Under the pieces are notes generated by a model, which saw only the letters and a program-made list of their open reading frames with translations, was not told the origin of the DNA and made no database searches. From positions 80,221,573 to 80,285,572 of the forward strand of contig CM060986.1 in NCBI GenBank assembly GCA_030765065.1: a stretch of DNA of 64,000 nt, in the 5' to 3' direction. The position numbers and the translations under genes were made by a program. Source of the stretch: Deroplatys truncata. Lineage: Eukaryota > Arthropoda > Insecta > Mantodea > Mantidae. Shown here piece by piece: positions 5,501 to 64,000 of this stretch; the stretch's first letter is position 1; each line of letters begins with the position of its first letter.

Positions 5501-6328
5501 TTACTTTCTCTATCACGAACCTAGTAGGTAGAACAGTCACCCAAAATTTGATATCGAGATTTCACCGGTAATAGATGTTTTGAGGCTTCTGAATCCAAAT
5601 GAAGCATTTTTAGAAATGTGTCTTTTGTGTGTGTGTGTGTGTGTGTAAATAGCATGACTGGATAAATACCGAAGTTGATATTTTGGATAAGTATCTTCCA
5701 AAGATCGACACAAAGATTTTCAATAAAATTCCTCTACCCGAAACTACACTTTACATGAAATAATTTAAGAACTTTTTTATTTTCCAAAAAGGACTAACAA
5801 TTTTTATTAAAATACGCACTATATATGAAAGATATGTACATAAACAAAATGTATATATTGAATTTTCTGAAAATAGCCTCTTCATTTTGTATGATCTTGT
5901 ATAACTGGTAAACGTTAAGCGACAGACGAAAAGTGCCACACAAAAAAGTAGATCTCTTTAAAATACAACAACTTATTTCCAATAAAATTTTTGTAGCATA
6001 CATAAGTCATTTCTTAGATATCTGTTATTAGAAGGTTCAAATTCTTCATTTATTGGTCCTTCTCTTAAAGTTCTCCAACATTCAGTTCTTTCTCGTGATT
6101 GCATGGAAACAGTATAGAATTTTAAGGCCAGCATATAGCGTCCAGATCTTAAATATTTGATTAACGTGTTCTCTTTGCATTTATAACGAAATATGTAATG
6201 TAGTTATTTCTGCAAGGCTTATTTGGATAAAAATGAAGTAGATAGAAGAATAAGCTTGAGTAAGAATAGTTTGAATACCCATAATAAACAATAAAGGGTG
6301 GAGAAAGTCATGTGAATGTATCATATTG
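5501..6328 (+). mobile_element. HP1 repeat, near full length
   Basis: HP1 is a non-autonomous repeat defined here by its many copies. This one starts TTACTTTCTCTA, carries the internal landmarks CGAGATTTCACCGG, GCATTTTTAGAAA, a GT microsatellite (5,627-5,646), AAGATTTTCAA, TAACTGGTAAACGTTAAG and GCCAGCATATAGCGTCC, and ends GGAGAAAGTCATGTGAATGT. No protein is encoded. Confidence 0.85.
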
Positions 6329-6413
6329 GATATATTTTTTAAGTACTTTCACTCCCAAAACTCCTAATCTTCTTTGAATTAGCTTAAAGCATAATAAATG
6401 GTGTTGAAAAAAT

Positions 6414-6969
6414 CCCCGATTTGTTACATTCACATACTTTCTCTCTCAAAGTCGTTAATTTGTATATCTCTTCTCTAAAATATTCTCACAAAAGCTTTTT
6501 TTCTATCTACTTCTTGTTAATCGAGTACTCGTTTGCAGAAATGGTTTAGGTCCACATTTCGTTGCAGGTACAAGTAGCATACAGGAGGCGATGCGATAGC
6601 CAAATCAAGTAGGCCGCTATAAGCTGGTTTGGAATTCCATACTTTTGTATTGCTTCACTGAAAACAAACCGAGCTATTAAAAAAGTATGATATAAGTATT
6701 AGACAGTTCCTACCAAAAGCAACGAATATCTGGGAAATGACCACAAATATTTTTGTTTGTCTTAACGAGATCTACTTGTTTCCTGTCGTAAATGTTGCCT
6801 ACCTTTTACCAGTTGCACGTGTGCACGCGGAATTCATCTTAACTTGTATTTTTGGGGGGTACAAGGGACCTCAAAATATGTGTTTTCGGTGAAATCTCGA
6901 TATCGAAGTTTTGGTTAGAATGCAATACTTCCTCTACCTACCATAGGAATATAGTAGAGAAAGTAAAAA
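6414..6969 (-). mobile_element. HP1 repeat, both ends present, internally shortened
   Basis: The plus strand shows the reversed 3' end (TTGTTACATTCACATACTTTCTC) at 6,414 and the reversed 5' hairpin (CCTCTACCTACC..., then TAGTAGAGAAAGT) at 6,925-6,969. Middle landmarks ACGAGATCTACTTGTTTCC and GGTGAAATCTCGATATCGAA fix the orientation. About a third of the consensus interior is missing or unrecognisable. Confidence 0.8.
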
Positions 6970-6979
6970 ATAAAAAATG

Positions 6980-7650
6980 AGGAACGTTTCCGTCATCATA
7001 TGGTTACATCTTACTCAAGTTTGAAATATTAATGAACGCATTTTCAGTAAAACTGAGAGCAGTGAATGTTACTGAAATAATAATAGTAATAATAATAATA
7101 ACAATGCACGAGAATTTACTCTTTGCTGTTCCGCTCTTCCATAAGGGTAGAAGGAGAGAGAAATACAAACAAGAGTTAATGAAGCTGCAAGGCGTGAATT
7201 AGCCGTCTATGTATTTTACTCCTGTAACACGTAGTTGCTCTGCATTCATATTTTGAATGAGCTAATCAGTAAGATCAAAGGTGGGCAGAATCATTTTAAT
7301 AATACTTATAACTTTAGATTGACTGTGATACAAGCATGCAGACGTAATGAAGATCTGGGCGATATATTACAATTGAACAGTGGAATTCCTTCTCTCCCAG
7401 TACATCATACTGAAATATGTGCAGGAATTCTTGTATGCAATCTGATGAATTGTAGTGGTAAGAATGGTAACACATATTTTTTTATGTTTTCTAAAGCACA
7501 AGACGGGAAATTATACACCATGTTATATGATTGCAAATTTGTGTAATTTTTTCAAACTTTTAACAATATTCGAACGACAATTTTTAAGAGGAAGTATTTA
7601 AATTGTTTAGAAGATACAAATATATACGAAATCTAAATGCTTAGGTTATT
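6980..7650. other. No recognisable gene
   Basis: AT-rich DNA with an imperfect (TAA)n run near 7,077-7,101. A 103-codon open frame at 7,235-7,546 shows no domain, signal peptide or repeat that I recognise; codon content looks like ordinary AT-rich background. Confidence 0.45.
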
Positions 7651-7659
7651 AAATAACTT

Positions 7660-7745
7660 TTGCGACGGTACCATGGGAGGTGCTGTGCACCGATTTGGTG
7701 GCACTGGATTTCAGGAATGGTCCCGGGTTCGTCCACACATACACA
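7660..7745 (+). mobile_element. Possible SINE relic with B-box
   Basis: A GC-richer patch ends in GGTCCCGGGTTCGTCC, which resembles the B-box context of the SINE heads elsewhere (GGTCCCGGGTTCGATTCC at 17.5 kb), followed by a CACACA run. No A-box and no second copy were seen. Confidence 0.3.
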
Positions 7746-8968: not shown

Positions 8969-9249
8969 ATCGTATTCAGTGGTCTAGGAGTACCATCCTA
9001 GCCTCTGGTTTCCGAGGTCGCGGGTTCAAAACCGGAGGAGGACGATAGATTTTTTTCGGCGTAAAATACCTTAGCATGGCTTTCTTCGGAAGAGAAGTAA
9101 AGCCGGTGGCCCCGTGTCATAGATTTACGGCATGTAAAAGAACCAAGCCTGATAAAGAGGCCTGTGAGCAAAATTTCTGGTCCTTCACGCCCAATATAGA
9201 ATGGGACGCTAAGGACCACAGCAGTTAAAGAGCGTCCATAAATAAAACT
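8969..9249 (+). mobile_element. tRNA-derived SINE, family S1
   Basis: Head with GTGGTCTAGGAGTACC (A-box region) and GCGGGTTCAAAACCGG (B-box), body GCATGGCTTTCTTCGGAAG, GTCATAGATTTACGGCATG and AAGAGGCCTGTGAGCAAAA, tail GGACCACAGCAGTTAAAGAG. Four copies lie in this window. Antisense frames such as the 73-codon one here simply read through the SINE body. Confidence 0.88.
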
Positions 9250-9509
9250 AAATTAATGTAATTTTTATTCTGCATGTTGATAGAATTCATTGTCCGTTTG
9301 CTCAAGCCGGAAATGAAGTGTGATATTGATCCCTGAATACGCAAAGGAGCCTTTTTTTAGTTATACTTCACGAGTAGATATGTGTATCATCGAAATAGAT
9401 TTGGATAGAATAATAACGATAGAACTTAGATAGAATAGAAATGGATTTCATAGGTCAACAGTTTCTATTTTAGAATAAATACTAATTAATAATAATAACT
9501 AAATTTGTG

Positions 9510-9757: not shown

Positions 9758-9945
9758 GCGGTAGAAAAAGTAAAAGAAAAGTAATTGACAAGGGAAAGTT
9801 TTGATACACTTCTGGCCACATTTCTCACCCACTCGCTGACTTCCATTCTCATTATTTCGCTTTCTCTTTTACTTACTTGTGATAGGTGAAGCAGATATTG
9901 TAATCTACTCAAAAAATCGAAATCCGCAATCCGCAATCAAGAGGT

Positions 9946-10146
9946 GCCGGCCCTCGTAGCCGTGGTCGCTGGAGTGTATAGCTCCGGCGCTTCGCCAAGC
10001 TGAGGATCGCGGGTTCGAGTCCCGCCATGGGCATGGTTGTTTGCGTGTGTAGGTATGTTGTGTCATTGGGGGAATAATCAGTAACGAAAACAGTAAAAAC
10101 ACAGTATGATAAACCGGGTAAAACAAGGGAACTTTAAAAAAAAGAG
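9946..10146 (+). mobile_element. tRNA-derived SINE, family S2
   Basis: Begins GCCGGCCCTCGTAGCCGTGG, carries a perfect B-box in GCGGGTTCGAGTCCCGCC, then GGGCATGG and a short body, and ends in an A-rich tail (CTTTAAAAAAAA). The second copy at 47.74 kb starts at the same base and has the same tail type. The matching GGCGGGA/TCCCGCC bases can pair as a tRNA T-stem. Confidence 0.82.
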
Positions 10147-12330: not shown

Positions 12331-12377
12331 GAAATAATGGACCGTTTTTATAACGGAGTTTTGTGATATATATTTAT

Positions 12378-13085
12378 TTTTCCTACCGCGTACGTAGTAG
12401 GTAGAGAAGGTATTGCATTCCTCCCAAAAATCATTATCGAGATTTCACTGAAAATCCATGTTTTGCGGCCTCCTGCATCCAGATAAAGGATTTTTGGAAA
12501 CATGTCCGCCTGTGTCTGTGAACACCGCAAGTCCAAAACGAGAATTCGGATAAATACCAAACTTGGTATTTAAATTCGGTATCTTCTAAGGATGCGGCAC
12601 GATGATTTTAAAGAAAATTCCATACCAGATACCCTTTGCATGGAACATTTTTCGAAAATTTTACCTTTTTGGTAAAACTACCATATATTAAAGATATTTA
12701 CATAACAAAATATATGTTTTGAATGCTTTGGGAATAGCTTTGAAGTCCTCTTCATTCGGAAGGAATTTTATATAACTGGTAAACGTTAAGCGATAGATGA
12801 AAATATTCTATACAAGAAATGTAGATCTTTTTAAAACACACAATTTATTTCAAATAAGTGTTTTTTAATGTGGTATAAGCCGTTTCTGAGATATCCGTTA
12901 TTTATGGTTCAAATCGTTCATTACTTGATCATTCTTTAAGGACCTTTCAACATTCAATTGTTTCTGGCGATTGCATGGAAACAGTATGGAATTTTAATGC
13001 CAGTATATACCGTCCAGCACTTAAAGATTTCACTATTGCTGTTCCTTTTGTACCTATAACGAAATGAGTGTTAGTAACTCAATTA
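12378..13085 (+). mobile_element. HP1 repeat, 3' end missing
   Basis: The 5' hairpin is recognisable (CCTACCGCGTACGTAGTAGGTAGAGAAGG), followed by ATCGAGATTTCACTG, GGATTTTTGGAAACATGTCC, CCAAACTTGGTATTTAAATTCG, TATAACTGGTAAACGTTAAG and TGCATGGAAACAGTATGGAA. Similarity fades after CCTATAACGAAATG, so the terminal arm and tail are lost. Confidence 0.8.
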
Positions 13086-16129: not shown

Positions 16130-17259
16130 TACGAGAGCAGATTGATAAGATGCTTTAAGGAGAAAAAAAATTTCCCAAATTTTATTTCTCAACATAGTCT
16201 CCTTTCAATGCACGTTGTCCAACGTTTCACCAATTCTTTAAGCCTTCCAAAAAATATGAGTTTCGAAGCCTGCAAAATATGAGGTTTTTTCTGCCATGAT
16301 GTGTTCACTGGACGTGAATTTATTCCCAGCGAGCCAATTTTTCAGGTTTGCGAAGAGGAAGAAATCGCTTGGAGCCAAATCTGGAGAATATGGTGGGTGA
16401 GGTAGCAGTTCGTAGCCCCATTCCACAAATTTTGCGAGCCTGACTTGTGTGCGGTTGCATTATCGTGGTGGAAGAGAACCCTTTTCTTCACCAAATGGGG
16501 TCGTTTCTTTAACAATTCCTTGTGAAACTGGTCCAGCATTCCGGCATAATATGAACCTGTGATTGTTTTACCCTTTTCCAGGTAGTAGATTTCTATCACC
16601 TCTTGTGAACATCAAAAGACAGCTGCCATGATGATAGTAATGAATCCAAGTTCCATCAACCGTGATATAACGCCGCAAAAACCCATTTGGTTTGCGCTGG
16701 AACATCCCTGTGAGATGGTCACACGATCCCGCTTCTTCCCAACTGTAAGCAGTCGTGTCACCCATCTTGCTGAGTGCTTTCATACTCAAAAAATTCATGC
16801 AGTATGTTATACACCCGTTCACTTGAGATGTTTACGGTCTTGGGTATCTCGCGGATTTTCACTCGGCGGCCTTCCAATACAATATCCTGAACTTTGTTCA
16901 CCATTTCTTCTGTCGTGACCTCAACCGACCGTTCTGTGCATACGGCATCTCTTGTGCTCAAACGGCCATATCGAAATTCTGTGAACCAAACATCTTGAGA
17001 ACCAAGCCATGTGATGGAGCATAGTCCCCATAATACTTGTTCAGCTTTTCTTCAGTTTCCTTCACCGTCTTACCACGCAAAAAGAAGTGCTTTATCGGAA
17101 CACTAATTCACTTTCTCCATTTTTTACATGTGATTATTTTAGACGCTTTCAACAATGTTCTAAGAAACAAATTACGACGAATTTCTGCGATTATACCCTT
17201 CTGGGTAAGACCTAGGTGCAAACAAGAAACCTATAATTAGAACGCTCTCTCTCTCTCGT
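16130..17259 (-). mobile_element. Mariner transposon, decayed transposase
   Basis: Minus-strand protein runs through the family in order: KxFFLRGKTVKETEEKLNKYYG (N-terminal helix-turn-helix), RLSTRDAVCTERSVEVTTEE, VHxILHEF, GDTTAYSWEEAGS, a TVDGTWIHYY block (the first catalytic Asp block, normally VDETW), FHHDNATAHKS (second Asp) and PHPPYSPDLAPSDFFLF (third Asp, D34D spacing type), ending about 16,235. Stops and frameshifts break it into four open frames (62-85 codons). The left boundary TACGAGAGCA follows TA at 16,128-16,129; a matching GCTCTCTCTCTCTCGT lies near 17,259, without a clear TA. Length about 1.13 kb against the usual 1.3 kb. Confidence 0.88.
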
Positions 17260-18181: not shown

Positions 18182-18460
18182 CTCGCGTACTGGTGTGCTG
18201 TATTGACAAACATCTAGTTCCCGAGGTCACGGGTTCAAACTCGACGAAGGGCAATGAACTTTTTCGGGCGTAAAAATCCTTATCATGGCTTCCTTCGGAA
18301 GGGAAGTAAAGCCGGTGGTCCCGTGTCGTAGATTTACGACACGCAAAAGAACCTCAAGCTTGATAAATAGGCCTTTGAGTAAAATTTCTGGTATTTCACG
18401 TCCAGTATAGAATGGGACGCTAAGGACCATAGTAGTTAAAGAGTGTCCATAAATAGAAAA
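18182..18460 (+). mobile_element. SINE S1, weak head
   Basis: B-box CACGGGTTCAAACTCG at about 18,222-18,237, then the S1 body TTTTCGGGCGTAAAAATCC, ATGGCTTCCTTCGGAAGG, GTCGTAGATTTACGACACG, and the tail GGACCATAGTAGTTAAAGAG. The A-box end is poorly preserved. Confidence 0.85.
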
Positions 18461-18534
18461 CACTCAACAGCTCGTATTGATAAATTCTAACATACCTCTT
18501 CAAAAATATATCTATACTAATATATAAAGGGAGA

Positions 18535-18630
18535 AAATTTGTATTTCCGGTGAAATCTTGACATCAAATTTGTGGGTGGAATACAGCACTGCCTCTGCCT
18601 GCTATAGGGAGGTGCTAGAGAAAGTGGAAA
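18535..18630 (-). mobile_element. HP1 5'-end fragment
   Basis: GTATTTCCGGTGAAATCTTG, GGGTGGAATACAGCACTGCC and GCTAGAGAAAGTGG are the reversed first 95 bp of HP1, including a decayed hairpin. The rest of the repeat is absent. Confidence 0.7.
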
Positions 18631-18639: not shown

Positions 18640-19280
18640 AAGTATGAATTTTCAAGATTACTCTGTGAAATTAGCACAGATTTAGTTAAAACCTAGAGAA
18701 ATGAATGGAAAGTCTTACTTAAAAAGCGCGTTTAAACCTAACCTATGTCTTCATGTTACTTCAGGGAAGCGGATTTCTCCCTGTGACGAATCTCGCTGGA
18801 GGGGTTTATAGCTTCAAACATAGCCAAAAATGTTACTCGGTTGTTGCGCAAGAAACCTGGCATTAAAACCTCTGCTTTGTTCGCCCGGAACGTCAAAGCG
18901 ATTTGTGTAGGCTATATCCCGAGGCTATATGTTTCTTGTTACACATCTAACTGTGAAAAACATTCGCATTATTATGAAGAATTTCCCACTCATCACTGCT
19001 TGGGTAGTTCCGTATTTGGTCGCGCCACGAGAAGTCCCCATATTTGTGAATAATATCATAACCTGAATCTTACACGCAGATCATTCGCCCTGGACAAGGT
19101 AGTAAGTCCACCTGTGCGGACTTAATCACAGACATTATCGTCCATCAGAAAATTACACATTATCGTGGTAAGGTAACATTTCCATAGTAAACCTGTTTCG
19201 CCACATAGAGTCCGTGCTATAACTCAGGTTCTAATGGCTGCTATGGCGAACACTGGCTGTTCAAAAAGTCACGCTGTATC
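18640..19280. other. No recognisable gene
   Basis: A 70-codon open frame at 18,841-19,053 has no known motif. Moderate GC content; no repeat from this window matches. Confidence 0.45.
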
Positions 19281-19286
19281 TACTTT

Positions 19287-20124
19287 TCACTTTCTCTACT
19301 ATGTACATGGTAAGTAAACCAGGTATGGCATTCCACGCAAAAAATTCGATACCGAGATTTCATCGGAAATACATGTTTTGAGGCACCTAGACTAAAAGAA
19401 AAACATTTTTAAAAAAAGATGCGCGCGCGTGCGTCAATGAACAGCGTAACTCAAAAACAAAGTCAGATAAATACTAAACTTGTTATTTAGGTTCAGTACC
19501 ACGACGATTTTCAAGAAATACCCCACCTCAAACTACTCTTTACTTGAAACATTTTCGAAATTTTTTATTTTATAAAAATGGCTCTAACGATTTTGATTAA
19601 AATACAGTATATTAAATATGTTTACATTACAAATAAAATGTATATCTAGAGTTTTCTGAGAATTGTCTGCAAAGTCCTCTTTGTTTGGAATGAATTTTGT
19701 GTAATATTGTATAACGTTAAGTGATAGATGAAAACGTACTACAGAAAAAGGTAGTTCTCTTTAAAATAAACAATTTATTTCAAATATCTTTTTTGTGGCA
19801 TTAGACATTTCTAAAATATCCGTTATTAATGATTCAAATTGTTCAACAATTTGTCATTCTTTTAAGTCATGTCGATTTTCAGTTCTTTCTCGCGATGTTG
19901 TGGAAATAGCATCGAATTTTAAGGCCAGCATATAGCGTCTGATCTTAAACATTTGATTATCGGCCGTTCTCTTTGTACTTAACGAAAATGTGTAATATAG
20001 CTATTTCTGCAAAGGTTCATCTTGATTAAAATGAGGTAGAAATATATAGTTTGGTAAGAATAATGTGTATACCACTAATAAATGTGAGAGGGTAGAGAAA
20101 ATAATGTGACTGTATCACATCAGA
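19287..20124 (+). mobile_element. HP1 repeat, near full length
   Basis: Starts CACTTTCTCTACTATGTACA with the partner arm weak (GGTAAGTAAACC), then ATACCGAGATTTCATCGG, CAGCGTAACTCAAAAAC, CGATTTTCAAGAAATACCCC, GGCCAGCATATAGCGTC, and ends GGTAGAGAAAATAATGTGAC. It belongs to the older-looking set that keeps the AACGTTAAGTGATAGATG and GCATATAGCG segments. Confidence 0.85.
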
Positions 20125-20284
20125 TTTTCTACTTTCTTTAGAAGCATTGTACTCTTGTTATGTTGTACAAAATGTCTATATTTCGATTTCACCTGAAATA
20201 TACGTTTTGAGAAGTATAGCCATGGTGTCATTATAACTAAGAGGTAAAATAAATGACACATATGGAAAGGTATCAAAAGAAGAC

Positions 20285-20700: not shown

Positions 20701-20736
20701 TGTTTGGTTAGTCAGAGGGAATTAATCTGTATTTTT

Positions 20737-21085
20737 ACTTTCTCTACCACGTGCATAGTAGGTAGATAAAGTATTGCACTCCAACTTAAAATTTCATACC
20801 GAGATTTCACCGACCGGAAATACATGTTTTGAGACACCTAGAATAGAAAAAAAGCAAAAAGGTCCGTGTGTGTGTTTCAGTGAACAGCGTAACTCAAAAA
20901 TGGAAAGTCAGATAAATACAAAACTTGGTATTCAAGTTTGGTAAGATCTAAGGTTGCAACACGAAGATTTTCAAGAAAATCCCCCAGAAAAATCTTGAAT
21001 TTTCTGGGGAAATTTCCTCTTTCTTCGGAAGGAATTTTGTATAATCTTGTATAACTGGTAATGTTAAGTGATAGACGAAACCGTA
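20737..21085 (+). mobile_element. HP1 repeat, 5' half only
   Basis: Opens TTACTTTCTCTACCACGTGC with partner arm GTAGGTAGATAAAGT, then ATACCGAGATTTCACCG, GTGTGTTTCAGTGAACAGCG, AACTTGGTATTCAAGTTTGG and CACGAAGATTTTCAAG. Within the copy there is a deletion joining ATCCCCCAGAAAAATCTTG to the later TGAATTTTCTGGG landmark; it ends at about ATAGACGAAACC. Confidence 0.82.
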
Positions 21086-21109
21086 CAGTCCGGTGCAAAA
21101 AACAAACAA

Positions 21110-23600: not shown

Positions 23601-23784
23601 TGGGGCAGGAACTACCTTCTTCAAATTGGCTCCCTAAGCGTGGGGCAAATAACAATACAACAAACCATCTTCTCAGTTTTCTCAACGAATCTTAAACTGC
23701 CCTGAACCATAGCTTCTGAGGCACATCCGCCATCGCGAGAAAAAGGCTATGCAAACAACTTGTGTTGCTAGAACTAGGTAAGGT

Positions 23785-29320: not shown

Positions 29321-29324
29321 TCCT

Positions 29325-30152: not shown

Positions 30153-30171
30153 TAGTTAATTACATGTAAGG

Positions 30172-31150: not shown

Positions 31151-31155
31151 TACTT

Positions 31156-32526: not shown

Positions 32527-32529
32527 TTA

Positions 32530-38775: not shown

Positions 38776-38776
38776 T

Positions 38777-39571: not shown

Positions 39572-39574
39572 TTT

Positions 39575-40718: not shown

Positions 40719-40721
40719 AAT

Positions 40722-41795: not shown

Positions 41796-41878
41796 GGGCT
41801 TATTTATTTTATCCACTTCATTCATCGTCCGATAACACCTACACGATTAAAGAATATTAAACTTAAAATAAAAATATG

Positions 41879-42721: not shown

Positions 42722-42724
42722 GTG

Positions 42725-44660: not shown

Positions 44661-44663
44661 TTA

Positions 44664-45559: not shown

Positions 45560-45862
45560 TTTTTTTATATTCATGTCATCAAATTTCAATCTGTTTCGTT
45601 AAATGTGGACGTCAGAGGCAACTTTTGGAACTTTATTCCAAATATGGCGAAGTTTTTAAGATTTGTTAATGGCTTTAGGCCCAAGGGGGTGATTGGGGAG
45701 GCTTAAAATATTGTAAAACCGAGTTATTTTGGGTTTTTTTATGGGTTGTATATAGTTCATATCACATTTCCGTCATATTTCACTGCAGGTTTATCAAGTA
45801 GTGTTTTTGGTATGATTTTGACAAAAACGGATACATTTTGACTCTAGAAACTGACAAAAGTA

Positions 45863-47734: not shown

Positions 47735-47740
47735 AATGTT

Positions 47741-47893
47741 GCCGGCCCTCGTAGCCGTGGTTGCTGCAGCGTGTAGCTTTAGCGCTCCGCCAAGCTGAGT
47801 GTCGCGGGTTCGAATCCCGCCATGGGCATGGGGTGTTTTTGTATGTGTTGTAAAACAGTACAAAATAAAGTAGGGTGAAATTTAAAAAAATAA
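47741..47893 (+). mobile_element. tRNA-derived SINE, family S2
   Basis: Starts GCCGGCCCTCGTAGCCGTGG exactly like the 9.95 kb copy, with B-box GCGGGTTCGAATCCCGCC, GGGCATGG and the A-rich tail. It lies only six bases from the S3 head, so the two SINEs abut head to head. Confidence 0.82.
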
Positions 47894-48689: not shown

Positions 48690-49510
48690 TTGCAAGAGAA
48701 ATGATTGTTTTTCTGGGGAAAGGCAGACAGAAAATAACGTTACCTATCGCCTACGCCGGACCACGCATCCATCAGCTTGATGTGTATGGATTTGGTTTTC
48801 GGCGACAAGTATATGATAGTTATTAGCGGTTTACGTCGTGTGGAATGACATGCGTGATTCTTGGGAGTGTACAAGTGATGTCAGAATCGTGTCACTCGGG
48901 GCTATAGCAATGACGTGAGTAGTTGGGCAGGGCAGGTGTATAATATTTTATTACCATTTGAATAATGCACCTCTTTTATAAACAAATTATGCAACGTGAT
49001 TAATGCCACGAATATATCTTACAAATTGACCGCCATCTTTCAAGGAAGCTTCCGGGCGAGTTTGTGTCTTTCTGGGAACTACTTTGGATTATGTTGTGAT
49101 GAATTTGAGTAGTTCTTACTCAGTAGTTAATTGAAGTAGACACTGAACCTACCCACACATATAAAACACGTTTTTAGGGGGAGATGTAAGCAGTAGTGAA
49201 GTAGCAATCAAACATGAAGCATGACATCAGATGTCTCTCTTGGTAGCAGCAATGGTGATGATGCATTCCTGTGTCACATGGTATTATGATGTGCGAGTTA
49301 TGATTTAAGGTAATGCAGATTTTACAGTTGATTAACATGTAAATATAAGCTGAATATAGCTATAGAAGTGTGTATCTTCAAGTCAAAATTAGACTGTAGT
49401 TTCGTCATTCTGATCAAATTTCAGCTGCTGAATTTTTTATTAAACACACCTAAAAGTGCAAACTTTTAGTATGATTTAACTTTATCAACTTTAAGACTAC
49501 TCTGCAGTAT
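48690..49510. other. No recognisable gene
   Basis: Moderate AT content, with a 66-codon frame from the array edge only. Confidence 0.5.
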
Positions 49511-49514
49511 TCTA

Positions 49515-50505
49515 CAGTACTTTTCCTTCACAGTGGGTCACCGCACGGCGGCTGACGCGCCGACCGCCGCAGCTCTGTCTCCTGCCGAAATAGCTATAAT
49601 GCTCCCGCAACGGCCTCACGTTCTCATAATTACAGTGATAAGCAGATATTTTGCCATAAGAGATGGAAATAATTCTCTTCTGTATGTGCATATCTGTGGC
49701 ATCTTCTCAGGAAATTTTCATTCACACTCGAGATTTCAGTATCCGAAATTTAATACATTTCTGATGTTTTCTTTTAGTATTTTCAATGTATGGGATTTGT
49801 TGCTTACGCCTTATTTTCCATGTGATCTTAAGAGTCTGGTTAATTTGTGTAATTGGATTTTTGAAATGATAGAGTAATTGACCATGCTTAATATTCTTCT
49901 CTGACGAAGCATAGTTCCATTTATGTGTCTATGTTTCGTCACAAAATAATATATATTGGATCACAGAGAAACTCGATTTAACACGAGATTCCCTTGCATG
50001 ACGCAAAAACTGGCATGTAGTAAATGCATACGGAATAATAAGACCTGTATTTTTTTATCAAACAATAAATGCTGATACGGGAATAACATACTTTCACAAT
50101 CTTTTTAACAGCTGACCCACATTGAATGTCAGTCGGTATTTTTCCAACGCGCATACAACTGATGGGTCATTAAATTTAATTCGGGAAATTTTTGAAGATA
50201 GTGTAATAATTGAAGAATTATGGGCCTCACGATCCTCTGATTTAGCTGTATGAAACATCAAGCGAAAAATGCATTCAATTCGGATATTGAATTCTCCATT
50301 GCGAATTACACTTTCCTGAGAAGTTGCCAGAAATACGCGTATAAAAATATTTTCAATACATTTCATAAAACCTATGCTTATTATCACTGTAATTGTAACG
50401 TGAGGCAGTTGTCTGTATGTAATAACTGTTCCGGCAGCTTGCGCCCGAGCTGCGGCGCAAGATGCTATCCACCTGGGGTGGCCACAGTATGAAGGAAGAG
50501 CACTG
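49515..50505 (+). mobile_element. DDE_3 transposon with inverted repeats over 200 bp
   Basis: The left end CAGTACTTTTCCTTCACAG and right end (complement) CAGTGCTCTTCCTTCATAC are flanked by TA on both sides. The two arms stay alignable for about 230 bp (CCGCAGCTC..., CCTCACGTT, ATTACAGTGATAA, CTTCTCAGGAAA, ATATCCGAATT), unusually long for this superfamily. The middle holds a decayed transposase (TGGCATGTAGTAAATGCATA equals the AVNAY block; AGAATTATGGGCCTCACGAT equals the LWxxRSxDL block), too interrupted to give an open frame. 991 bp in total. Confidence 0.85.
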
Positions 50506-50747
50506 TAATATACTTTTTCCTGTGATATCATTCCCCCAATATGTACTACAAATTACACACTCAAAGTGGTCTATGTTTAATTATTAAAATATAAAGTTGT
50601 CTTAGGAATAACAGCAAAACTCTTTTTGCTAAGCTATTACGATCTGGTTTAAGGGATCATTACTTGCATTTCAGGCATCTGATTGATTCAGATACGTTTA
50701 AAGTTCAACGTTAGTTGTAATACTTTCGATTAGGTTTAGTCACATTG

Positions 50748-51249: not shown

Positions 51250-51765
51250 TTCTATTACAATAGGTAATCTCATTACAACTTTACATAATCCCGTATATGT
51301 TATAATATTCATACACGTTGCGCTACCGACAATAAGTTTATTAGAACTAAACATAACAATTGGCACATCGTAAGTCAGATTATTACTAATGAACCCAAAC
51401 GGGAAAAAAAAGAATCGCAAAATATGCTTTATAGTTGCCACATTACAGTTCAATGAGGAAAAACCTAAGGAAATAACGAATATTTCGAAATATAGCTAGT
51501 ACTACCGAAAGAGTAATTTTTTTCTTCTGTCTGTTTTATAATTTTTTTTGTTAGTTTGCCTGTTTTCTTTTTCTTTTCCCAATTCTTATAAAATATAATT
51601 AACTTTAAACTTCAGTGTGATAAATATAACCTGAAACATGAGGACTACATCTATCTGACCCGTGTGACGTATGAGTCTCAACATTTAAAATGTTTAGGAC
51701 CAATAAATACACCATTCTAGTTTATTCTATATTTGAATGAACTCTAAATTTTTTGTGCCTTTTTT
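51250..51765. other. No recognisable gene
   Basis: AT-rich with a T-rich tract at 51,510-51,580. Nothing assigned. Confidence 0.5.
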
Positions 51766-51771
51766 TTATCT

Positions 51772-52172
51772 CTTATGGTTTACAACTTACACAAAAGTAT
51801 ACAAAATTCTTTCCAAACCAAGAGCACTTCGCAGGTGATTCCGAGAAAATTAAAGATATGCTTTTCAGAAATCATGTAAATATCTTAAGACAGGGTGTTT
51901 TAAACGAACACGTCATAGCCAGTTTTGAAAAAATAAAAAATGCTGAAAATCTTCGTGTCGCAACCTTGAGAAGCACTGAGCTTAAACAAAAAAGTTTATG
52001 TGGCTTTTCTTATGGGACACATACACATATTTTTGCTTTAAAATATCTTTTCTTCTTTTCAGGGACCTCAAAACGTGTATTTAGAGTAAAATCTCGATAA
52101 TGAATTTTCAGTGAAATACAATGCGGCCTCTAGGCATCTACATTGGGCACATGATAAATAAAGTGAAAAAGA
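51772..52172 (-). mobile_element. HP1 repeat, 5' half
   Basis: Reversed landmarks: GTTTACAACTTACACAAAAG, GATTCCGAGAAAATTAAAG, AATCTTCGTGTCGCAACC, GAGGGACCTCAAAACGTG-like text and GTAAAATCTCGATAATG. The hairpin end is decayed and the 3' half missing. Confidence 0.75.
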
Positions 52173-52479: not shown

Positions 52480-52945
52480 TTTATTACTGCTTATTTCGCT
52501 TAAAATTCAATATCGATATTTCATGGAATTCCTTAGTAAGACAAAATTCTGTACGTGAACAACATGTAACTTAAAGACGGAAAGCTGTATAAATATTACA
52601 TTTAATGCTCGAGTTTAAGACTGTCAGACAAGGATTTGCTAAAAATGCGTCACAACGAAATACTCTTTCCAGGAAAAAGTCATATTTTCTCAAATATGAC
52701 TTTAATGATTTTGTTTAAGCGGATATGCAACTCGTTTTGAATAGGTCAATACTAACAAATACTAGGGAGTTTCTAAAATTTTGCATACTCTATTAAAACA
52801 TCTAATGTCATTTGCATAACTTGTTCTATGCAGTATCATTTATTGTTTTCTCTCCTCTACAAACTAATCTCCTAATAAATATTTTGTTTATCTACTTCGT
52901 GCCAGGACAAATAGCGTTTGTAAAAATAGTTATATTACACGCTTT
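52480..52945 (+). mobile_element. Degraded HP1-like sequence
   Basis: ATCGATATTTCATGG, GTACGTGAACAACATGTAAC, AAAGACGGAAAGCTGTATAAA, TATTTTCTCAAATATGAC and TTTAATGATTTTG match the HP1 order weakly. A reversed HP1 3' piece (TTTTCTCTCCTCTACAAAC) may adjoin it at 52,845. Confidence 0.45.
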
Positions 52946-53007
52946 GTTGTAGTTGCTAAGAGCATACAGGAAGTTGAAGCGATAATCAAACGTTTAAAAA
53001 CCCGGTT

Positions 53008-53125
53008 GGGATTTGGCTTTGAAAGTCTATACTCTTGACTACACCATACACTCTTGATATACCCTACAATACCCTCTTGACTCTGAAAGCCTATACCCGG
53101 CTACATCTTGGCTTTGAAAGTCTAT
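53008..53125. repeat. Short local repeat
   Basis: TGAAAG(T/C)CTATAC appears three times (about 53,020, 53,085, 53,113), twice inside TTGGCTTTGAAAGTCTATAC, interleaved with ACTCTTGA repeats. A small slippage-type duplication. Confidence 0.65.
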
Positions 53126-53408: not shown

Positions 53409-53536
53409 CGAGAAGAAGGTACCAAAACTTCTGCAATTAGATTTGTATGTAACGAACCACCTAATCTAGACATATGAATAACATTTTGAATAATTCTGAT
53501 TCTACCTACTTAGAACATTTTATAATAATCTAATTG

Positions 53537-53955
53537 TGTTACATGCGCATAAGTTTCTCTACCCCTATTGTTTATTAGTGGGCATGCAAATTATTCTTAT
53601 GAAAGTTTATTTCTCTATCAACTTCATTTTAATACAGATAAATCTTTGAGAAAATAGGTACATTATACATTTAGTTAGGACACAAAGAGAACAGTGACAG
53701 TAAAATGTTTAAGAACTGGACGTTATAAGCTGTCCTTAAAATTCCGTATGCTTCCATGCAATCGCGAGAAACAGTCACTTTATAAGAATGACAAAGTAGC
53801 GAACAAATCGAATCATTAATAACGGTACGTTTTCGTCTATCGCTTAACGTTTATCAGTTATACAAAATTACACAATTCCTTTCGAATAAAGAGGAATTCA
53901 CAGGCTATTCCCAGAAAATGCAAGATATATATTTAATTTATCATGTACATATCTT
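53537..53955 (-). mobile_element. HP1 repeat, 3' half
   Basis: Reversed tail GTTACATGCGCATAAGTTTCTCTAC, then GGACGTTATAAGCTGTCC, GCTTCCATGCAATCGCG, CGTTTTCGTCTATCGCTTAACG and CTATTCCCAGAAAATGCAAG. It stops near CATGTACATATC; the hairpin half is missing. Confidence 0.8.
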
Positions 53956-53959
53956 TTTG

Positions 53960-54715
53960 GACACATGGCCTAAAAGTAGAGCTTCTAACACAGAACACAC
54001 GAACTAAACTTTAAAGTATCACACTTTGATTTCAAGCCCAACCACATGGCAATTGCCCTTTGTATTTGCATATGTTGAATAACTCGACTGGTTTTACTTT
54101 TTATTACGTCTTTTTACATGATTAATTTCTCATAGCGCTCCCAATATCTGTTCACAATATCCATGGTCATACTTAAATTTGTCGCAATTCGTTATATTGG
54201 CAGTCTTCTGCTTTCTTTGATCTAAAACGTTTTTCTTTTATGTATTATAACATACCTAAAGATTAAATAACGGAGGTTATGAATTCAGAAGAAGCTGCAA
54301 TGAAAGAGCCATGTGAAATTATAGAAGCAGTGGAAAGATTAACACTAGTGGTACTTACCCATAAAATCCAGAAAGCAATATGATATAGCATTTAATCGCT
54401 TCATTGTTTGATGCAAGACAAAACATGTTGAAAATGATTCCACAGAAAACGGCTGCTAGCGAGTCAACAAAGCATCAAAACATCTGACATATCGCTTTTT
54501 AACATAATTTCTCTTGTTTCAAGAACCAGGTTCTAAACGCGATCTCTGTTAGTTTCAGGAATCTACACAATATTATTGATATTTTACAAATTCGAGCACT
54601 GTATAAAAAATAGTGTATGTCACACATGTAAAAAGTGGCTTTATTTTCAACTCGCAAAATAAGAGCATAATTTTACCCAGTGTATCATAATCTACTATTA
54701 ATATAGGTATTTTAA
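53960..54715. other. No recognisable gene
   Basis: AT-rich; nothing assigned. Confidence 0.5.
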
Positions 54716-54734
54716 TTAAAATAGTTGGCTATTT

Positions 54735-54980
54735 TTTGGATAAAATACCTTCTTTGGAAGGTACTGAACCTAAATACTAAGTTTAGTATTTATCCCACTT
54801 CACACACGCGCGCACGTGCGCACACAAACACATGCACCCATGCACACCGACCTTTTTCTAAAAATGCTGTTTTTTATTTAAGGGGCCTCAAAACAAGTAT
54901 TTCCGGTGAAACCTCGGTATTGCATTTTTGAGTGGAGTGTAATACCTTCCTTATGTACTATGTACGCAGTAGAGAAAGCA
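54735..54980 (-). mobile_element. HP1 repeat, 5' third
   Basis: Reversed landmarks AAGGTACTGAACCTAAATAC, a CACACA/CGCGCA tract, CCTTTTTCTAAAAATGC, GGTGAAACCTCGGTATTG and the hairpin arm GCAGTAGAGAAAGC at 54,966-54,979. Confidence 0.82.
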
Positions 54981-55006
54981 AAAAACGGCAGCCAAAGTAT
55001 TCGCTA

Positions 55007-56521: not shown

Positions 56522-56588
<67 letters not shown>

Positions 56589-57276
56589 GCATTTTTAGAA
56601 AAAGAACAGCATGACTCAAAAACTAAATGATGGATAAATACCAGACTTGGTATTTAGGTTCAGTGCTTTCAAAGATGCGACACAAAGATTTTAAAGAAAA
56701 TACCGCACTCCAAACTACACTTTAATGGAAATTTTTGGTTTAACAAAAAATACCTCTAACAATTTTGATTAAAACACCGTATGTTATACATATTTACATG
56801 ACTAATAAAATGCATTTTTGAATTTTCTGAGAATAGCTGTGAAGGAATATGGTATAATATTGCATAATGGTAAACGTTAAGCGATAGACGAAAATCTACC
56901 ACACAAAAAGTGTGCATCTCTTTAAAACACACAATTTATTTCAAATAACTGTTTTTGTGGCATTAGTAATTTCTGAGATATCCGTTATTAATGGTCCGAT
57001 TTGTTTATTTCTTGGTCATTCTCTTAAGTCCTGTCAACATTCACATGTTTCTCTTGATTGCATGGAAACAGTATGGAGTTTTAAAGCTAGCATATAGCGT
57101 TCAGTTCTTAAACATTTGAGTATTGCTGTTTTCTTTGTATTTATAACGAAATGTGTAATGTAGTTATTTCTGCAAATGTTTATTTGGATTAAATGTAGTA
57201 GATAGAAAATCAGCTTTAGTAGGAATAGTTAATATATCTACTAATAAATGATGTCATGTGAATGTAACACATTAGA
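56471..57276 (+). mobile_element. HP1 repeat with internal (TAA)n expansion
   Basis: Opens TTGCTTTCTCTACCATGTAC, reaches TTTTGAGGTCTCCTGAATAA, where a (TAA)n run of about 60 bp sits, then AAAGCATTTTTAGAAAAAG, ATGCGACACAAAGATTTTAAAG, GTAAACGTTAAGCGATAGACG, GCTAGCATATAGCGTTC and the tail GTCATGTGAATGTAACACA. The usual terminal arm GTAGAGAAA has been lost, although the tail survives. Confidence 0.85.
56526..56587. repeat. (TAA)n microsatellite inside HP1
   Basis: About twenty units at the HP1 position CTGAAT/AAAGCATTTTT. A smaller TAA-rich expansion lies at the same HP1 site at 33.54 kb. Confidence 0.95.
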
Positions 57277-57284
57277 TTTGTTTT

Positions 57285-58525
57285 TACATTTTAATGAAGG
57301 TAGAACTACTTATGGACTTATCTTATTGGATCTTTCGGGAATAGGAAGAAGGATAAATCTGGCCTGTTTTCACAGTGTTAATATCATTTATAGCACTTCA
57401 CAGTCTCCTTTTGTCCCATTATTGTTATTATATTACTATCAGATATTTCACTTAGAAACATGTTTTTATCTCTCAAACAACATATTATCTCAGCTGTTTG
57501 TTTGGTTGAAACTATTCCGCTAGTAATTGGCCGCTAGGAGCGCTGTAATCGCCGCAACTCAAGCTTCATGACGCTATAAACTATTATAGTAGACGTATGA
57601 TAATGCCCACTGCTAGTAGCTTCATTAGTTTCTCTTTAACAAGATACATCAGTATGTATAAATATGAAATATTCGTTATGCCTTTAAGTTGCTATACGGT
57701 TTGCTAGTATTTTTACAGTTCCCTCCTCCGGGTCCGGAAATGCTTTCTAGTTATTTCAGTAGGCGTAATTGTCATTTACACAGTTTCTTGTAATTGGGTC
57801 CGAAAACCACAGCAATCAGCGTTAATGATAACAACCATTCTTCCTACGAATCAAACTTGTTAACAAGGACAGGCAGCTGCCTTAAACAGCAGAGATCACG
57901 CTATTCCTTATAAACTTGGCCACACAGTTGCTGTGCTTTGCTCCATTCATAGCAATGATATAATATTAAAGTGACCTAATTTGAAATGTAAGCGTTAGAC
58001 CAAGATAGTTTAAGTTTTACCTTCGCATTGTCCTAATTTTTATTATGACCTGTAGAATATTCCAGCTACCATTTAAGATTTTTTTCCAGTTTTTGGGCAA
58101 TTAAAATATATTTTAATGCCTGTTGATATGAGCTTTGAAGCTGTTGTGCTGTTGTGTTAAAATTTGCAAAGGGTTTTCAGTATTACTGGTTTTCGAACTT
58201 TAAAAATAAATATCTGTTCAACGCTCACACATATTTCACTGTCATTAAATGCACACGCAGGCTTTTCATAAGTAACGAATAAATACGAAACAAAAACACT
58301 AAATTATTTATTTAAATATGCTCGTGCACGTAAAATTTCATATTTTTAGCTCTTCCGGCTCTTTTTATACACCTGACGGCTCCGTGAATTTTTTAAGTTT
58401 GCTCCTGCTCCACACAGTTGTCGATTTGGGCGAGTTTAATTCACAAATACGCACACTTCTTGCTTCACTAACTCTCATAATAATAATATTACTAATAATA
58501 ATTTCAATCCTTTTAATTATTTTAA
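57285..58525. other. No recognisable gene
   Basis: A 91-codon frame begins in the HP1 tail and means nothing. The stretch 57,720-57,950 is less AT-rich but unassigned. Confidence 0.45.
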
Positions 58526-58534
58526 AAGCACACT

Positions 58535-59296
58535 TACCTATAGTAATCAGAGGAATTATTGCATCACACCCAAAAATCCGATATAGAGATTACACTGGAA
58601 ATTCCTTTTTGGACTTCCTGCATATAAAAGCAACCTTTTAAGAAAATAACCGTACATGTGGTGTGTGTTATAATTAAAAAAAACTAATTCGGTTAAAAAG
58701 CAAATTTTAAAGTATGTGACACAAAGATTTAAAAAAAATTCCCCAATTCAAGTTACAACTTACATGGAACTATTTTAATTATTTTGATTAAAATACCATA
58801 TCTTTAAGATATTTGCATGCCAAAGAAAATGCATATCTTGAATTTTCTGCGAATAGTCCATGATGTCCAGCATTATTGGTATACCGTAAAAGATAAGACA
58901 AAATATTACTATACAAGAAATATATAGATGTCGCTAAAACACAAAATTTATGTGAAATAATATTTTCTGTAGCGTTAACCATTTCCGAGATATTTTTAGT
59001 TATTACTTTAAATTTTAAAAAAATCACACTTCTTTCAAACGGTAAGACGCTATTCTATTTTTGTCGTGGTCATGCAAGCACCATGGTATTTCAAAGCTAT
59101 CACGTAGCGATCTCCTTTTTAAAAATCTGGCTATCAGTTTAGGCTACTGTAATCTTCTTTTACCTACAACGAAAATATGAATCGGTAATTAAAGCTTACA
59201 TACATTAACAAGAAGTCGAAAGAAGAATAAGACTTTGTAAGAATACTTTGTAGAAGAGCGAGTAGTGTAGGTCATGTGAATGCAAAACATCAGGTT
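58535..59296 (+). mobile_element. HP1 repeat, diverged
   Basis: From ATTGCATCACACCCAAAAATCCG and TAGAGATTACACTGG through AAGCAACCTTTTAAGAAAATAAC, GTATGTGACACAAAG, TTTAAGATATTTGCATG and CGTTAACCATTTCCGAGATATT to GTAGTGTAGGTCATGTGAATG...AACATCAGG. The 5' hairpin is barely visible. Confidence 0.75.
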
Positions 59297-59299
59297 TTT

Positions 59300-59630
59300 T
59301 AAAAGAAAGGTATTTTCTTCAGTTGCATGAAAACATTTATTTATTTTTGCATACAGAAGGTTTGGTTACTATTGGAACAGATTTCTAATGCATGTACACT
59401 AGGTCAATTTAAAATTAGCCGGTATATGAGAGACAGAACTCCAATCTGTGAGCGGTTGGGATAGCCGGGCTTTGTTCACATATAGTCTTGTAGTAGTTAT
59501 AATGGGAAACACAACTATAATCACAAAAGTCTTTCGAGAAAATAATTCGTATACGATATTTCAAACAGACAGATGTTTCAAGTGAATATTTGTAACCAAA
59601 ACACACCGATGACCGTATGACTAAAGCTCG
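59300..59630. other. No recognisable feature
   Basis: AT-rich; a 63-codon minus-strand frame at 59,415-59,606 has no motif. Confidence 0.45.
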
Positions 59631-60029: not shown

Positions 60030-60550
60030 GTGGAGGTAGCTCAAGTCAATGTCTTGTGGCTTGTATTATAGAGTTTGATAATTTGTTAATTTAATAAATT
60101 ATTTGAGCCTTTAAGTATAAAATACATTTGGCTAAGTCCTAAAACTTTAAATAAAATATACAATATTCATAAAATGGAATCTTACCATTAGAACATATAA
60201 ATAGTATTAAGACATTCTTGCACATTGTAAAATGGATTAACTTTTGGTCTTTAACTTACATAATTCTTGAAATGTTTTAATTTTAAAATTCTTACCCTCT
60301 CAGGAAGCATATTTCATTAAATACATGAGAGTAATGTATTTTACTCAATCTAGAGAATGGCATATGTGTATTAGAATTGTACCTTGTATTATGAGTATGC
60401 AAATTGCTTCTGAGCTCATTGCTTGCAATATTTTTCTTTAAAAACATTTTTATATCCAGAACATATAAATTATACACAGTTAGAATTCCTTCACTTATAA
60501 TCAAAGGCCTACAGGAGACATCAGGAAAACTTCTGGTAATTATTTTTAAT
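60030..60550. other. No recognisable gene
   Basis: AT-rich; nothing assigned. Confidence 0.5.
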
Positions 60551-60554
60551 GTTT

Positions 60555-61482
60555 TTTACTTTCTCTACTACGTATAGAAAGTAGGGGAAGTATTGTATTC
60601 CACCCAAAAATTCGATACAGAGATTTCACCGGAAATATATATTTTGAGACCCCTGAATCCAAAAAAAAGCATTTTTGGAAACATGTCTGTGCGTGTGTGT
60701 GTCTGTGAAACGCATAACTCAGAAACGAACAGTCGGATAAACACCAAACTTGGTATTTAGGTTCAGTATCTTCCAGAGATGTGACACGAAGGTTTTCAAG
60801 GAAATTCCCCCACCCGATTACCCTTTACATGGAACATTTTTTGAAAATTTTAATTTTCTGAAAAATAGCTCTAACGATTTTGATTAAAATATGATATATT
60901 TAAGATACTTTCATGACAAATAAAATGTATATCTTGAATTTTCTGGGAATGTCTCCAAAAGTATTCTTCATTGTGAACGACTTTTGCATAACTGGTAAAC
61001 CATAAGAGATAGACAAAATTTTACTACACAAAAAATGTAGATTGCGTTAAAGTACACAATTTATGTCATATGCATTTTTTGTTGAGTGAACTATTTTCAA
61101 GATATTGCTTGTTATTCCCTTAAATTTTTCAATACTTATTTTCTCAAATGGGAATTCGTTATTCATTTTTTGTCTTGGATATGCAAAGAGTATTAATCTG
61201 TGGCAAAGATAGTGGTGCTGCACCTAGCAACCAGCTATTAAGAGATATGTCTGTGCTTAATTGCCCTTGCAAATACAAAACAAGGGGAACATAGTACGAC
61301 TTAAGCGATAGTCAAATATTTTTAGAACTGATCGTTATGTGTAAAATGTAACTCTCTTTGCATGTCAGAAGATCGTTTCTGCAAACGTTTATCTCGATTA
61401 ATATGAAATAAATGGAGAATAAGAGTTTGTAAAAATATTTTGTACAAGAGTAGAGAAAGTCATGTGAGTGTAACACATCAGA
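60555..61482 (+). mobile_element. HP1 repeat, full length, long subtype
   Basis: The longest copy (about 928 bp). TTACTTTCTCTACTACGTATA, arm AGTAGGGGAAGT, ATACAGAGATTTCACCGG, GGAAACATGTCTGTGCG, AGAAACGAACAGTCGG, ATGTGACACGAAGG, the subtype segment GTATTAATCTGTGGCAAAG...GCTGCACCTAG, and the end GTAGAGAAAGTCATGTGAGTG...CACATCAG. Confidence 0.92.
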
Positions 61483-61489
61483 ATTTTTT

Positions 61490-62715
61490 TGTAATAGTAG
61501 TACATTTTTGTAATAGTAGGCTTTAAGCCAGCACTATTACCATACAATATAAGATCATACCTAATAATATTCTCAAAATAGGCAAAATACGCCTGTTTTA
61601 TATAATGTTTGGGTATCTTATTCATAAGATTCCTTAATAAATATTTAACTCCTGACAACCGTTAGCCAAAACGGCATACAGGAGTTGAGGTTGAGAACCG
61701 CGCGCTCGCTTGGAGGGATTTGAACTGTTCAAGAGACCGGCCACTTTTAGTTTGACCGAGTGTACATAGAATGCTGCTAAGGGGTAGGTTCTGAATACGA
61801 CCAGGTATAACAAAATTGAAGTCTGAAAGCTTTGAACGCATTTATAAAAGGGAGAAATCTAAAGCTGATAGTACGCCAATCAATATTTCCCACGTCAGAG
61901 TTCTAGCGACCTATAATCAATGTTATTATATAAAGGAATACGCATCCCCGTATTCAGCACAGTAGTAAGCTAAAATACACATTTAAATTCTAAAAGCATT
62001 CAGGCTCTGTATATGGGTAAAAATAAAGAAGACCGTGGTTTATTACTGATAACCATCTATGATTTTTGCCATTGGACTTTGAATGTATTTACGAACTTCC
62101 TACACGCACCATATGGGTTTCTATAGAGTATTGATACATCTACGTATCACATCGTTTTACCCCACACGTGGGCAGATATCAGTTAAGCTTCGACAGCCGA
62201 ACAAAATATATAAGTGATCGAAATTAGGGTTTGAATATTGAAAATGGGGTTTAAAATAACAAATTGGCTCTGTCACACCACTTCCGGTTTTTATGAAATT
62301 TTGTGTGTGATATTTTTAAAAAAGTACAAAAACTTTTATCTGCACTTACAATAGGTTAGTAAACGAAATGCAATAATAAGTGGCATAAAATATTAAAACC
62401 GCATTTTAATATTGAGAGAGGATTTTAAATATATTTTAATCTCGTGTGACTTACAATATTTTAGCCGCTATTAAAACGTAAATCGGAGTAATTATTTTAA
62501 TTTAATTATAATTGCTGGATGGGAACATTTTGATACCAATGATGGCTATGATGAAAATAATGGATATAAATAAACTAAAATTTAAGGATGTTACTATGAG
62601 TGTGCATTGAAATGAGTACGGAAAGGAAAATATATTTATTCCTGAAGACGTTCTAATGGATACTTAGAAGACAGTGAATTAGTTGGTCCCTAAAAAGTCT
62701 GGTTTTCTATATGAA
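61490..62715. other. No recognisable gene
   Basis: AT-rich apart from a small GC-rich patch at 61,690-61,745 with a poor B-box-like CAGTTCAAATCCC on the minus strand, which I do not count as a SINE. Confidence 0.45.
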
Positions 62716-62720
62716 AAAGA

Positions 62721-62994
62721 CGCTCTTTAACTGCTGTGGTTCTTAGCGTCCCATTTTATATCGGGCGTGAAAGACCGGAAATTTTGCTCACAGGCCTCTT
62801 TATCAGGCTTGAGGTTCTTTTAGGTGCCGTAAACATACAACACGGGACCACCGGCTTTACTTCCCTTCCGAAGGGAGCCATGCAAAGGATTTTTACGCCC
62901 GAAAAAATACATCGCTCTCCTCCGGTGAACCCGCGACCTCGGGAACTAGAGGCTAGCATGGTAACCACTACACCACGGAGGACGGCATTTTGAG
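62721..62994 (-). mobile_element. tRNA-derived SINE, family S1
   Basis: Minus-strand head CCGTCCTCCGTGGTGTAGTG (a classic A-box) and CGCGGGTTCACCGGAGG (damaged B-box), body GCATGGCTCCCTTCGGAAGG, tail AGAACCACAGCAGTTAAAGAG. The A-box end is the best in the family. Frames of 85 and 129 codons across it are discarded. Confidence 0.88.
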
Positions 62995-62999
62995 AGTAC

Positions 63000-63495
63000 G
63001 GAAAACGAAGCAACGTGAAGGGAATTAACAAAGATGTTGTTCTAGCATATCTTTCAGAAAAGTTAAGTGAATGTAAACAGTCGTAATTGTGGTCGTAATA
63101 TTCTATGCTAAAGAGGAAATTATGGAATATGAATTTATTATGCAATTGTTGAGAATGTATTTGTGTAAACTAGTATTAGTTGACGTCTAATTTCAAAAAT
63201 GAAATAAAAAGATTGTAGCAATGGATTAAAAGAGTTAATTTATTAATAACTTAAACTAGCATTTAGTTTGATAAGAGCTACAAAACAAACGATAGTTTAT
63301 AAGATAGCAACCGATTAAGTAAATTACAATTATTTTATAGTCTTTCTGAATATAGAATCCAGGGAGAGAGCAAAACAGATCACAAGTAACTTTTGCTTCA
63401 CTAAAGCCTAGAGCTTTTAACTGTATTATTTGTATAGCCATCTTTTTTATCATACTGCAGCTTTTATTTTAGAAACAACAAATGGTCTTTCAACT
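63000..63495. other. No recognisable gene
   Basis: AT-rich; nothing assigned. Confidence 0.5.
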
Positions 63496-63504
63496 TATTA
63501 ATTT

Positions 63505-64000
63505 CTTTGCCTCATACCTATGGTAGGTAGGCGGTAAAATTCTGTTACATTCAAAAATTCAATGACGAGATTTCACCAGAAAAATTGGGGCCACCTGAAT
63601 TCAGAAAATTTTAGTGTGTCTGTATGTCAAGTGCATAACCCCACAACGAAAAGTCCGATAAATGCCAAATTTGATATGACACGACCCAAAACTACGCATT
63701 TCATATATATTTTTAAAAATTTTGGACTTATGCAAAAATGGATTGAACGACTTTTATTAAGATATTATGTGTATAAATTTAAGATATTTACATAACAAAT
63801 TCTATATCTCGAATTTTATGGGAATAGCCTATGAAGCCCTACTCATTGTGAAGGAATATTTTTACAATTTTGTATAACTGGTAAACTGTAAGACAAAACC
63901 TACTACACAAGAAATATATTTCATTAAAGCCCATTGTTGCTTTCTTTATTTCTTTACTTTTTTATTTATTTTTTTGGTGGCACCAACCATTTCCAAGATA
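63505..64000 (+). mobile_element. HP1 repeat, cut by window end
   Basis: TACCTATGGTAGGTAGGCGG at the decayed hairpin, then ATGACGAGATTTCACCAG, GGCCACCTGAATTCAG, AACGAAAAGTCCGATAAATG, TTAAGATATTTACATAAC, TATAACTGGTAAACTGTAAG and CACCAACCATTTCCAAGATA, where the window stops. The 3' end lies outside. Confidence 0.8.

Follow-up and report, generated by a model that had tools for sequence, protein, structure and literature searches.

The repeat provisionally named HP1 in a preliminary description of a 64,000-base stretch of the Deroplatys truncata genome (assembly GCA_030765065.1, contig CM060986.1, positions 80,221,573 to 80,285,572; hereafter the window) is real, very abundant mobile DNA that carries no genes, and probably represents a high-copy non-autonomous family of rolling-circle transposons of the Helentron/Helitron2 type, DINE-1-like or HINE. 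No class had initially been given to it. One can be proposed from its anatomy, which is likely of the DINE-1/HINE type, so that HP1 would probably be a new family within a known class of elements and not a repeat that escapes classification, the comparison with DINE-1 and HINE being one of descriptions and not of whole sequences.

Abundance and copies of HP1

Copies were gathered from the best-defined termini and compared pairwise, the 3′ end was fixed, and eight of them were found to align end to end, failure to do so having been named beforehand as what would speak against the family. A DNA profile hidden Markov model of 886 positions built from these eight copies detected, at a cut-off of E ≤ 1e-3, 27 segments on both strands (the eight copies used for its construction included), which cover 12,909 of the 64,000 bases, i.e. 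20% of the window. The same profile gave no match in 20 first-order Markov shuffles of the window and none in the reversed window. The search bears out the existence of one abundant non-coding family, 0.8-0.93 kb long and present in both orientations, and all 22 places at which it had been listed coincide with a profile segment, the loosest correspondence being that of the place at 52.5 kb (segment 52791-53037).

Some of these places are now read differently. The neighbours at 5.5 and 6.4 kb are real copies, but they lie in opposite orientations, tail to tail (5495-6347, plus; 6405-6971, minus). The pieces at 53.5 and 54.7 kb, listed as separate copies, look like one minus-strand copy split by approximately 0.8 kb, and those at 33.4 and 34.8 kb like one plus-strand copy split by approximately 1.1 kb. 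The copy at 56.5 kb, listed as full or nearly so, is incomplete, its match starting at profile position 118, beside an (AAT)n run. HP1 pieces beyond the initial list are a minus-strand relic (30830-31136) and two 5′ ends, at 9856 and 20131, both degenerate.

Full copies measure 0.78-0.92 kb (827, 835, 815, 792, 844, 894, 778 and 924 bp for the eight, without terminal Ts), and a ninth copy with both ends (6964, minus) is reduced to 549 bp by an internal deletion. Pairwise identity among the eight full copies is 63-87%, and by eye they were placed in three groups, those at 31155, 38775, 42723, 44662 and 60554, those at 5499 and 19285, and that at 58516; HP1 would count as a single family made up of several subfamilies. 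The divergence (best pair, 87%) suggests, as far as sequence can tell, that the copies in the window are old.

The high local density, together with the tail-to-tail and head-to-tail neighbours, would also fit a satellite or segmental repeat that is dispersed but cannot move by itself. Such an origin is very improbable, however, for a repeat whose copies share their ends and occur in both orientations, and whose flanks have no matches elsewhere in the window apart from one short stretch, AAT-rich sequence and pieces of HP1. With respect to previous records, HP1 strings were not found in a text search of papers, which does not show that the family is unpublished. Exact HP1 patterns gave 0 matches in viral contigs and in bacterial and archaeal genomes, a result that says little because these collections are not of animal genomes, and no RNA family matched at gathering thresholds.

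Ends and internal anatomy

The ends that were placed number 16 on the 5′ side and 12 on the 3′ side; the 16 exclude the 20131 relic and the 58516 copy, in which no 5′ repeat is recognizable. Read from 5′ to 3′, the order is a T run, ACTTTCTCTACTA, a short gap, an inverted imperfect copy of ACTTTCTCTACTA (GTAGRGAAAGT) and a microsatellite-bearing 5′ block, in which a GTGT/GTCY-rich tract at approximately positions 115-185 precedes a conserved GAACAGCATAACTCAAAAACG sequence. The middle is AT-rich and varies in length; it leads to the 3′ part, made, in order, of GAGTAGAGAAAGT, a short palindrome (ATGTG-n7-CACAT), CAGAT and a T run. The 5′ ACTTTCTCTACTA and the 3′ consensus GAGTAGAGAAAGT form a pair of subterminal inverted repeats (subTIRs) of 12-13 bp, complementary at 12 of 13 positions. 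The 11-bp core of the former, ACTTTCTCTAC, is matched at 10 or 11 of its 11 positions in 12 of the 16 5′ ends, and the 3′ subTIR, matched at 11 or more of 13 positions in nine of the 12 3′ ends, is internal, ending approximately 30 nt before the terminus.

The inverted copy beside the 5′ subTIR is complementary to it at 8 or more of 11 positions in 8/16 ends, a level reached at 6.5% of 2000 positions picked at random in the window. At element positions 101-200, 8/16 5′ ends have GTCY/GT tracts of 10 nt or longer versus 0.8% of 4000 random non-HP1 stretches; tracts of at least 6 nt are present there in 14/16 (background, 10%), and two ends have none. These tracts are mixed, with GTCY, GTGT and GCGT units. 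At the 3′ side, all five stem pairs of the palindrome are kept in five of the 12 ends, with a sixth pair in one of these.

Long terminal repeats (LTRs) generally follow the TG...CA rule. The HP1 termini read ACTTTC...CATCAGAT(T)n, which argues against a solo LTR or other terminal piece of a retroelement, a reading that the size of 0.8-0.9 kb, the lack of an open reading frame (ORF), the many copies and the occasional 5-bp flank matches could otherwise favour. Pfam scans also revealed no retroelement domain, either in 27.7 kb of the window translated in six frames (DDE_3 and Transposase_1 only) or in nine chosen ORFs (DDE_3, DUF4817, and weak HTH and DUF7901 matches). By taking into account both the ends and the domains, an LTR origin is hardly credible and was set aside.

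Coding capacity

The initial statement that HP1 encodes no recognizable protein holds. The longest open stretch in the eight copies has 92 codons and stays under the 107 codons that mark the 95th percentile of 300 shuffles of one copy, and substitutions by codon position in four pairs of copies showed no consistent bias, one pair being uneven (4/13/12). Coding capacity was rejected. An open stretch that recurs on the reverse strand of the 5′ block (86 codons, 31172-31429; 92 codons, 60549-60824) was examined through these codon-position substitutions.

Junctions and weighing of the assignment

TT precedes 12 of the 16 5′ ends (frequency of TT in the window, 0.116), and TTTT is found within 10 nt after the CATCAG-like motif in 11 of the 12 3′ ends (background, 0.08). 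The binomial values for these T junctions are not independent tests, given the relatedness of the copies and the possibility that the Ts are part of the element. No target-site duplication (TSD) is visible, since the flanks of a given copy are no more alike than swapped flanks (nine copies; permutation p 0.33).

These data bear on the possibility that HP1 is an ordinary miniature inverted-repeat transposable element (MITE), namely a cut-and-paste DNA transposon of the non-autonomous kind, bounded by terminal inverted repeats and flanked by a short T/A-rich TSD. Inverted repeats are indeed present at the HP1 ends, T-rich flank matches of 4-8 nt occur in eight of nine copies (e.g. CTTTTT at 31155 and TTTAT at 44662) and could be read as TSDs, and elements of the DINE-1/HINE kind were themselves first filed as MITEs, according to excerpts of PMC4067079 and PMC2374699. 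However, the 3′ inverted repeat lies approximately 30 nt inside the end, so that inverted repeats are not found at both termini, and the flank matches were not counted as evidence because swapped flanks match over about the same length (mean, 4.9 versus 5.2). A simple MITE is, thus, unlikely, and this reading was set aside.

Several observations weigh against the assignment to non-autonomous Helentrons. Besides the T-rich flank matches, the T runs blur the HP1 termini and therefore limit the statement that no TSD is present. No empty site was found within the window for eight flank joins, the only two matches across a junction being at 19285, where the right flank is itself an HP1 5′ end, and at 58516, in AAT-rich low-complexity sequence. 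The six-frame Pfam scan of 27.7 kb of the window gave no trace of Rep/Helicase. A clear adjacent inverted copy is missing in 8/16 5′ ends (6 or 7 of 11 positions), and a tract of 10 nt or more is also missing in 8/16. The 3′ palindrome is short, and in seven of the 12 ends one or more of its five pairs are broken or replaced by a wobble (in one end by a wobble only). An automatic stem search placed it first in four of the 12 (at 57168 it is present, but another stem ranked above it), and any 5-bp stem is found in 18% of random 35-nt stretches. Folding as single-stranded DNA yielded z values of −0.4 and −2.5 for two 3′ ends, and, among six 5′ ends, no signal in two (z, 0.0 and −0.9) and a signal in four (z, −2.3 to −4.4).

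On balance, HP1 shows the DINE-1/HINE features that were tested, two of them with reservations: the palindrome is weak, and insertion with no duplication may be read from the lack of excess similarity between flanks, within the limits set by the T runs.

Proposed mechanism and implications

As a non-autonomous Helentron, HP1 would depend on the Rep/Helicase of an autonomous Helentron located at another place in the genome and acting in trans, as we infer from the literature. The enzyme would nick one HP1 end, one strand would be replicated through a single-stranded rolling-circle intermediate, the 3′ repeat and the palindrome would be read as a terminator, and the copy would be joined between T residues of a T-rich target with no duplication. 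One head-to-tail abutting pair (19280-20135, then 20131, the second member being degenerate) is, as a single degenerate case, compatible with such a rolling-circle mechanism.

A bolder and rather doubtful proposal is that HP1, as a Helentron-derived family not described before, accounts for a major share of the genome, near the 20% found in the window, with several long-lived subfamilies sharing their ends and the microsatellite-bearing 5′ block. DINE-1 occupies 9.2% of the Drosophila melanogaster dot chromosome, as stated in excerpts of PMC4067079. If the assignment of HP1 to the Helentrons is correct, rolling-circle elements would have written a fifth of this stretch. It would allow relabelling of such ‘unknown’ repeats in this and related genomes, and it points annotators to the junction (T-T, no duplication) and to the protein (Rep/Helicase), leaving the known workings of these elements unchanged.

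Table 1. HP1 copies, fragments and relics in the window. Profile positions refer to the 886-position model.
Positions	Strand	Feature	Basis
5495-6347	+	end to end, subfamily II	profile 5-880 of 886, E 6.6e-189; subfamily score
6405-6971	−	both ends present, internal deletion, faces the 5495 copy tail to tail	profile 6-124 + 447-873
9856-9924	+	degenerate HP1-type 5′ end only	terminal-profile match, E 4.2e-9; outside the 27 segments
12372-13069	+	5′ end present, without 3′ end, scores best as subfamily II	profile 9-747
18534-18630	−	5′ end fragment	profile 8-100
19280-20135	+	end to end, subfamily II	profile 4-874, E 3.4e-205
20131-20212	+	degenerate second 5′ end, abuts 3′ end of the 19280 copy, head to tail	terminal-profile match 20141-20212, relaxed match, sequence; outside the 27 segments
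20730-21086	+	5′ part, internal deletion	profile 6-264 + 385-478
23783-24005	+	internal fragment	profile 352-572
30830-31136	−	internal relic adjoining the 31151 copy	profile 308-634
31151-31988	+	end to end, subfamily I	profile 5-877, E 3.7e-250
33439-35127	+	probably one copy, split by ~1.1 kb of other sequence (33664-34803), without 3′ end	profile 7-216 + 214-569
38772-39587	+	end to end, subfamily I	profile 6-879, E 8.9e-228
40711-41435	−	without 5′ end, scores best as subfamily II	profile 140-873
41861-42724	−	end to end, subfamily I	profile 8-877, E 5.1e-244
44657-45576	+	end to end, subfamily I	profile 4-879, E 1e-262
44666-44678	+	5′ subTIR ACTTTCTCTACTA of the 44657 copy, Ts before it	sequence
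51725-52132	−	5′ part	profile 37-513
52791-53037	−	3′ fragment	profile 643-873
53528-54986	−	probably one copy, split by ~0.8 kb (53957-54750), ~120 profile positions missing at the joint	profile 6-232, 355-478, 561-864
56583-57285	+	without 5′ end, abuts (AAT)n at 56526-56587 (Tandem Repeats Finder, TRF)	profile 118-872
58518-59311	+	divergent, subfamily III, no recognizable 5′ subTIR	profile 7-880, E 5.6e-173
60550-61497	+	end to end, subfamily I	profile 5-878, E 8e-256
63494-64000	+	cut by window end	profile 7-558

The 60550 copy contains an inverted 100-bp HP1 piece at 61265-61366, perhaps the product of a template-switch event.

Other repeats and remnants in the window

A second repeat family of approximately 1 kb is present at 29261-30175 and 49506-50514, which match each other in both orientations. 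Within the latter, 49506-49760 is inverted with respect to 50267-50514 (68.7% identity), an arrangement that recalls elements with long terminal inverted repeats. Another piece of this family is found at 953-1148. A repeat of 250-295 bp, of the size of a short interspersed element (SINE), occurs in four copies with 77-84% identity, at 8969-9257, 18213-18461, 32225-32530 and 62702-63006. A shorter pair (47740-47846 and 9945-10050, 85% identical) may be a tRNA-derived SINE head, since 47745-47828 was called by ARAGORN as a tRNA-like gene whose anticodon is odd.

Transposase remnants were found at 16486-16632 (minus), 37978-38112 (plus) and 43256-43645 (plus), the matches being to mariner-type Transposase_1 (just above cut-off), to DDE_3 (below cut-off) and to a DUF4817 helix-turn-helix ORF (above cut-off), a set that would fit an arthropod genome. 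A perfect 2 × 159 bp tandem duplication at 4479-4796 is either very recent or an assembly effect.

Comparison with known systems

HP1 resembles canonical Helitrons in having a palindrome near the 3′ end and in the rolling-circle mechanism proposed for it. It differs from them, as they are defined in excerpts of PMC4067079, in the absence of a 5′ TC and a 3′ CTRR, in a T-rich rather than A-T target and in the presence of subterminal inverted repeats.

The likeness is closer with DINE-1 (INE-1, DNAREP1) of Drosophila, a non-autonomous Helentron. Excerpts of PMC2374699 describe for it 13-bp subTIRs, the 3′ one being internal and the 5′ one flanked by a partial inverted repeat, a 5′ block bearing a GTCY-rich microsatellite, a palindrome (stem-loop) directly after the 3′ subTIR, insertion at TT and no ORF, all as in HP1, in which the palindrome is weak. 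The subTIR itself differs (ACTTTCTCTACTA in HP1, ATACCC/TATACC types in DINE-1; PMC2374699, Table 1), as does the length of the 3′ stem (5-6 bp versus 7-11 in the DINE-1 excerpts), and, unlike in DINE-1 as described there, no central tandem repeats were seen in the eight aligned HP1 copies.

HINE elements of Metaseiulus occidentalis and Culex quinquefasciatus, which are also non-autonomous Helentrons, are reported together with empty sites and with an autonomous Helentron partner encoding Rep/Helicase, whereas HP1 is known from the copies of the window and is likened to them by description (excerpts of PMC4067079). According to the same excerpts, HINEs carry palindromic subTIRs of 12-15 bp, one near the 5′ end and one some tens of bp from the 3′ end, and, 8-35 bp before that end, a palindrome of 5-10 bp. 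HP1 resembles them in the length and placement of its subTIRs and in its weak 3′ palindrome and, furthermore, in the Ts at its boundaries, in its T-rich targets, which in HINE are joined with no target-site modification, and in its microsatellites, which in HINE are optional.

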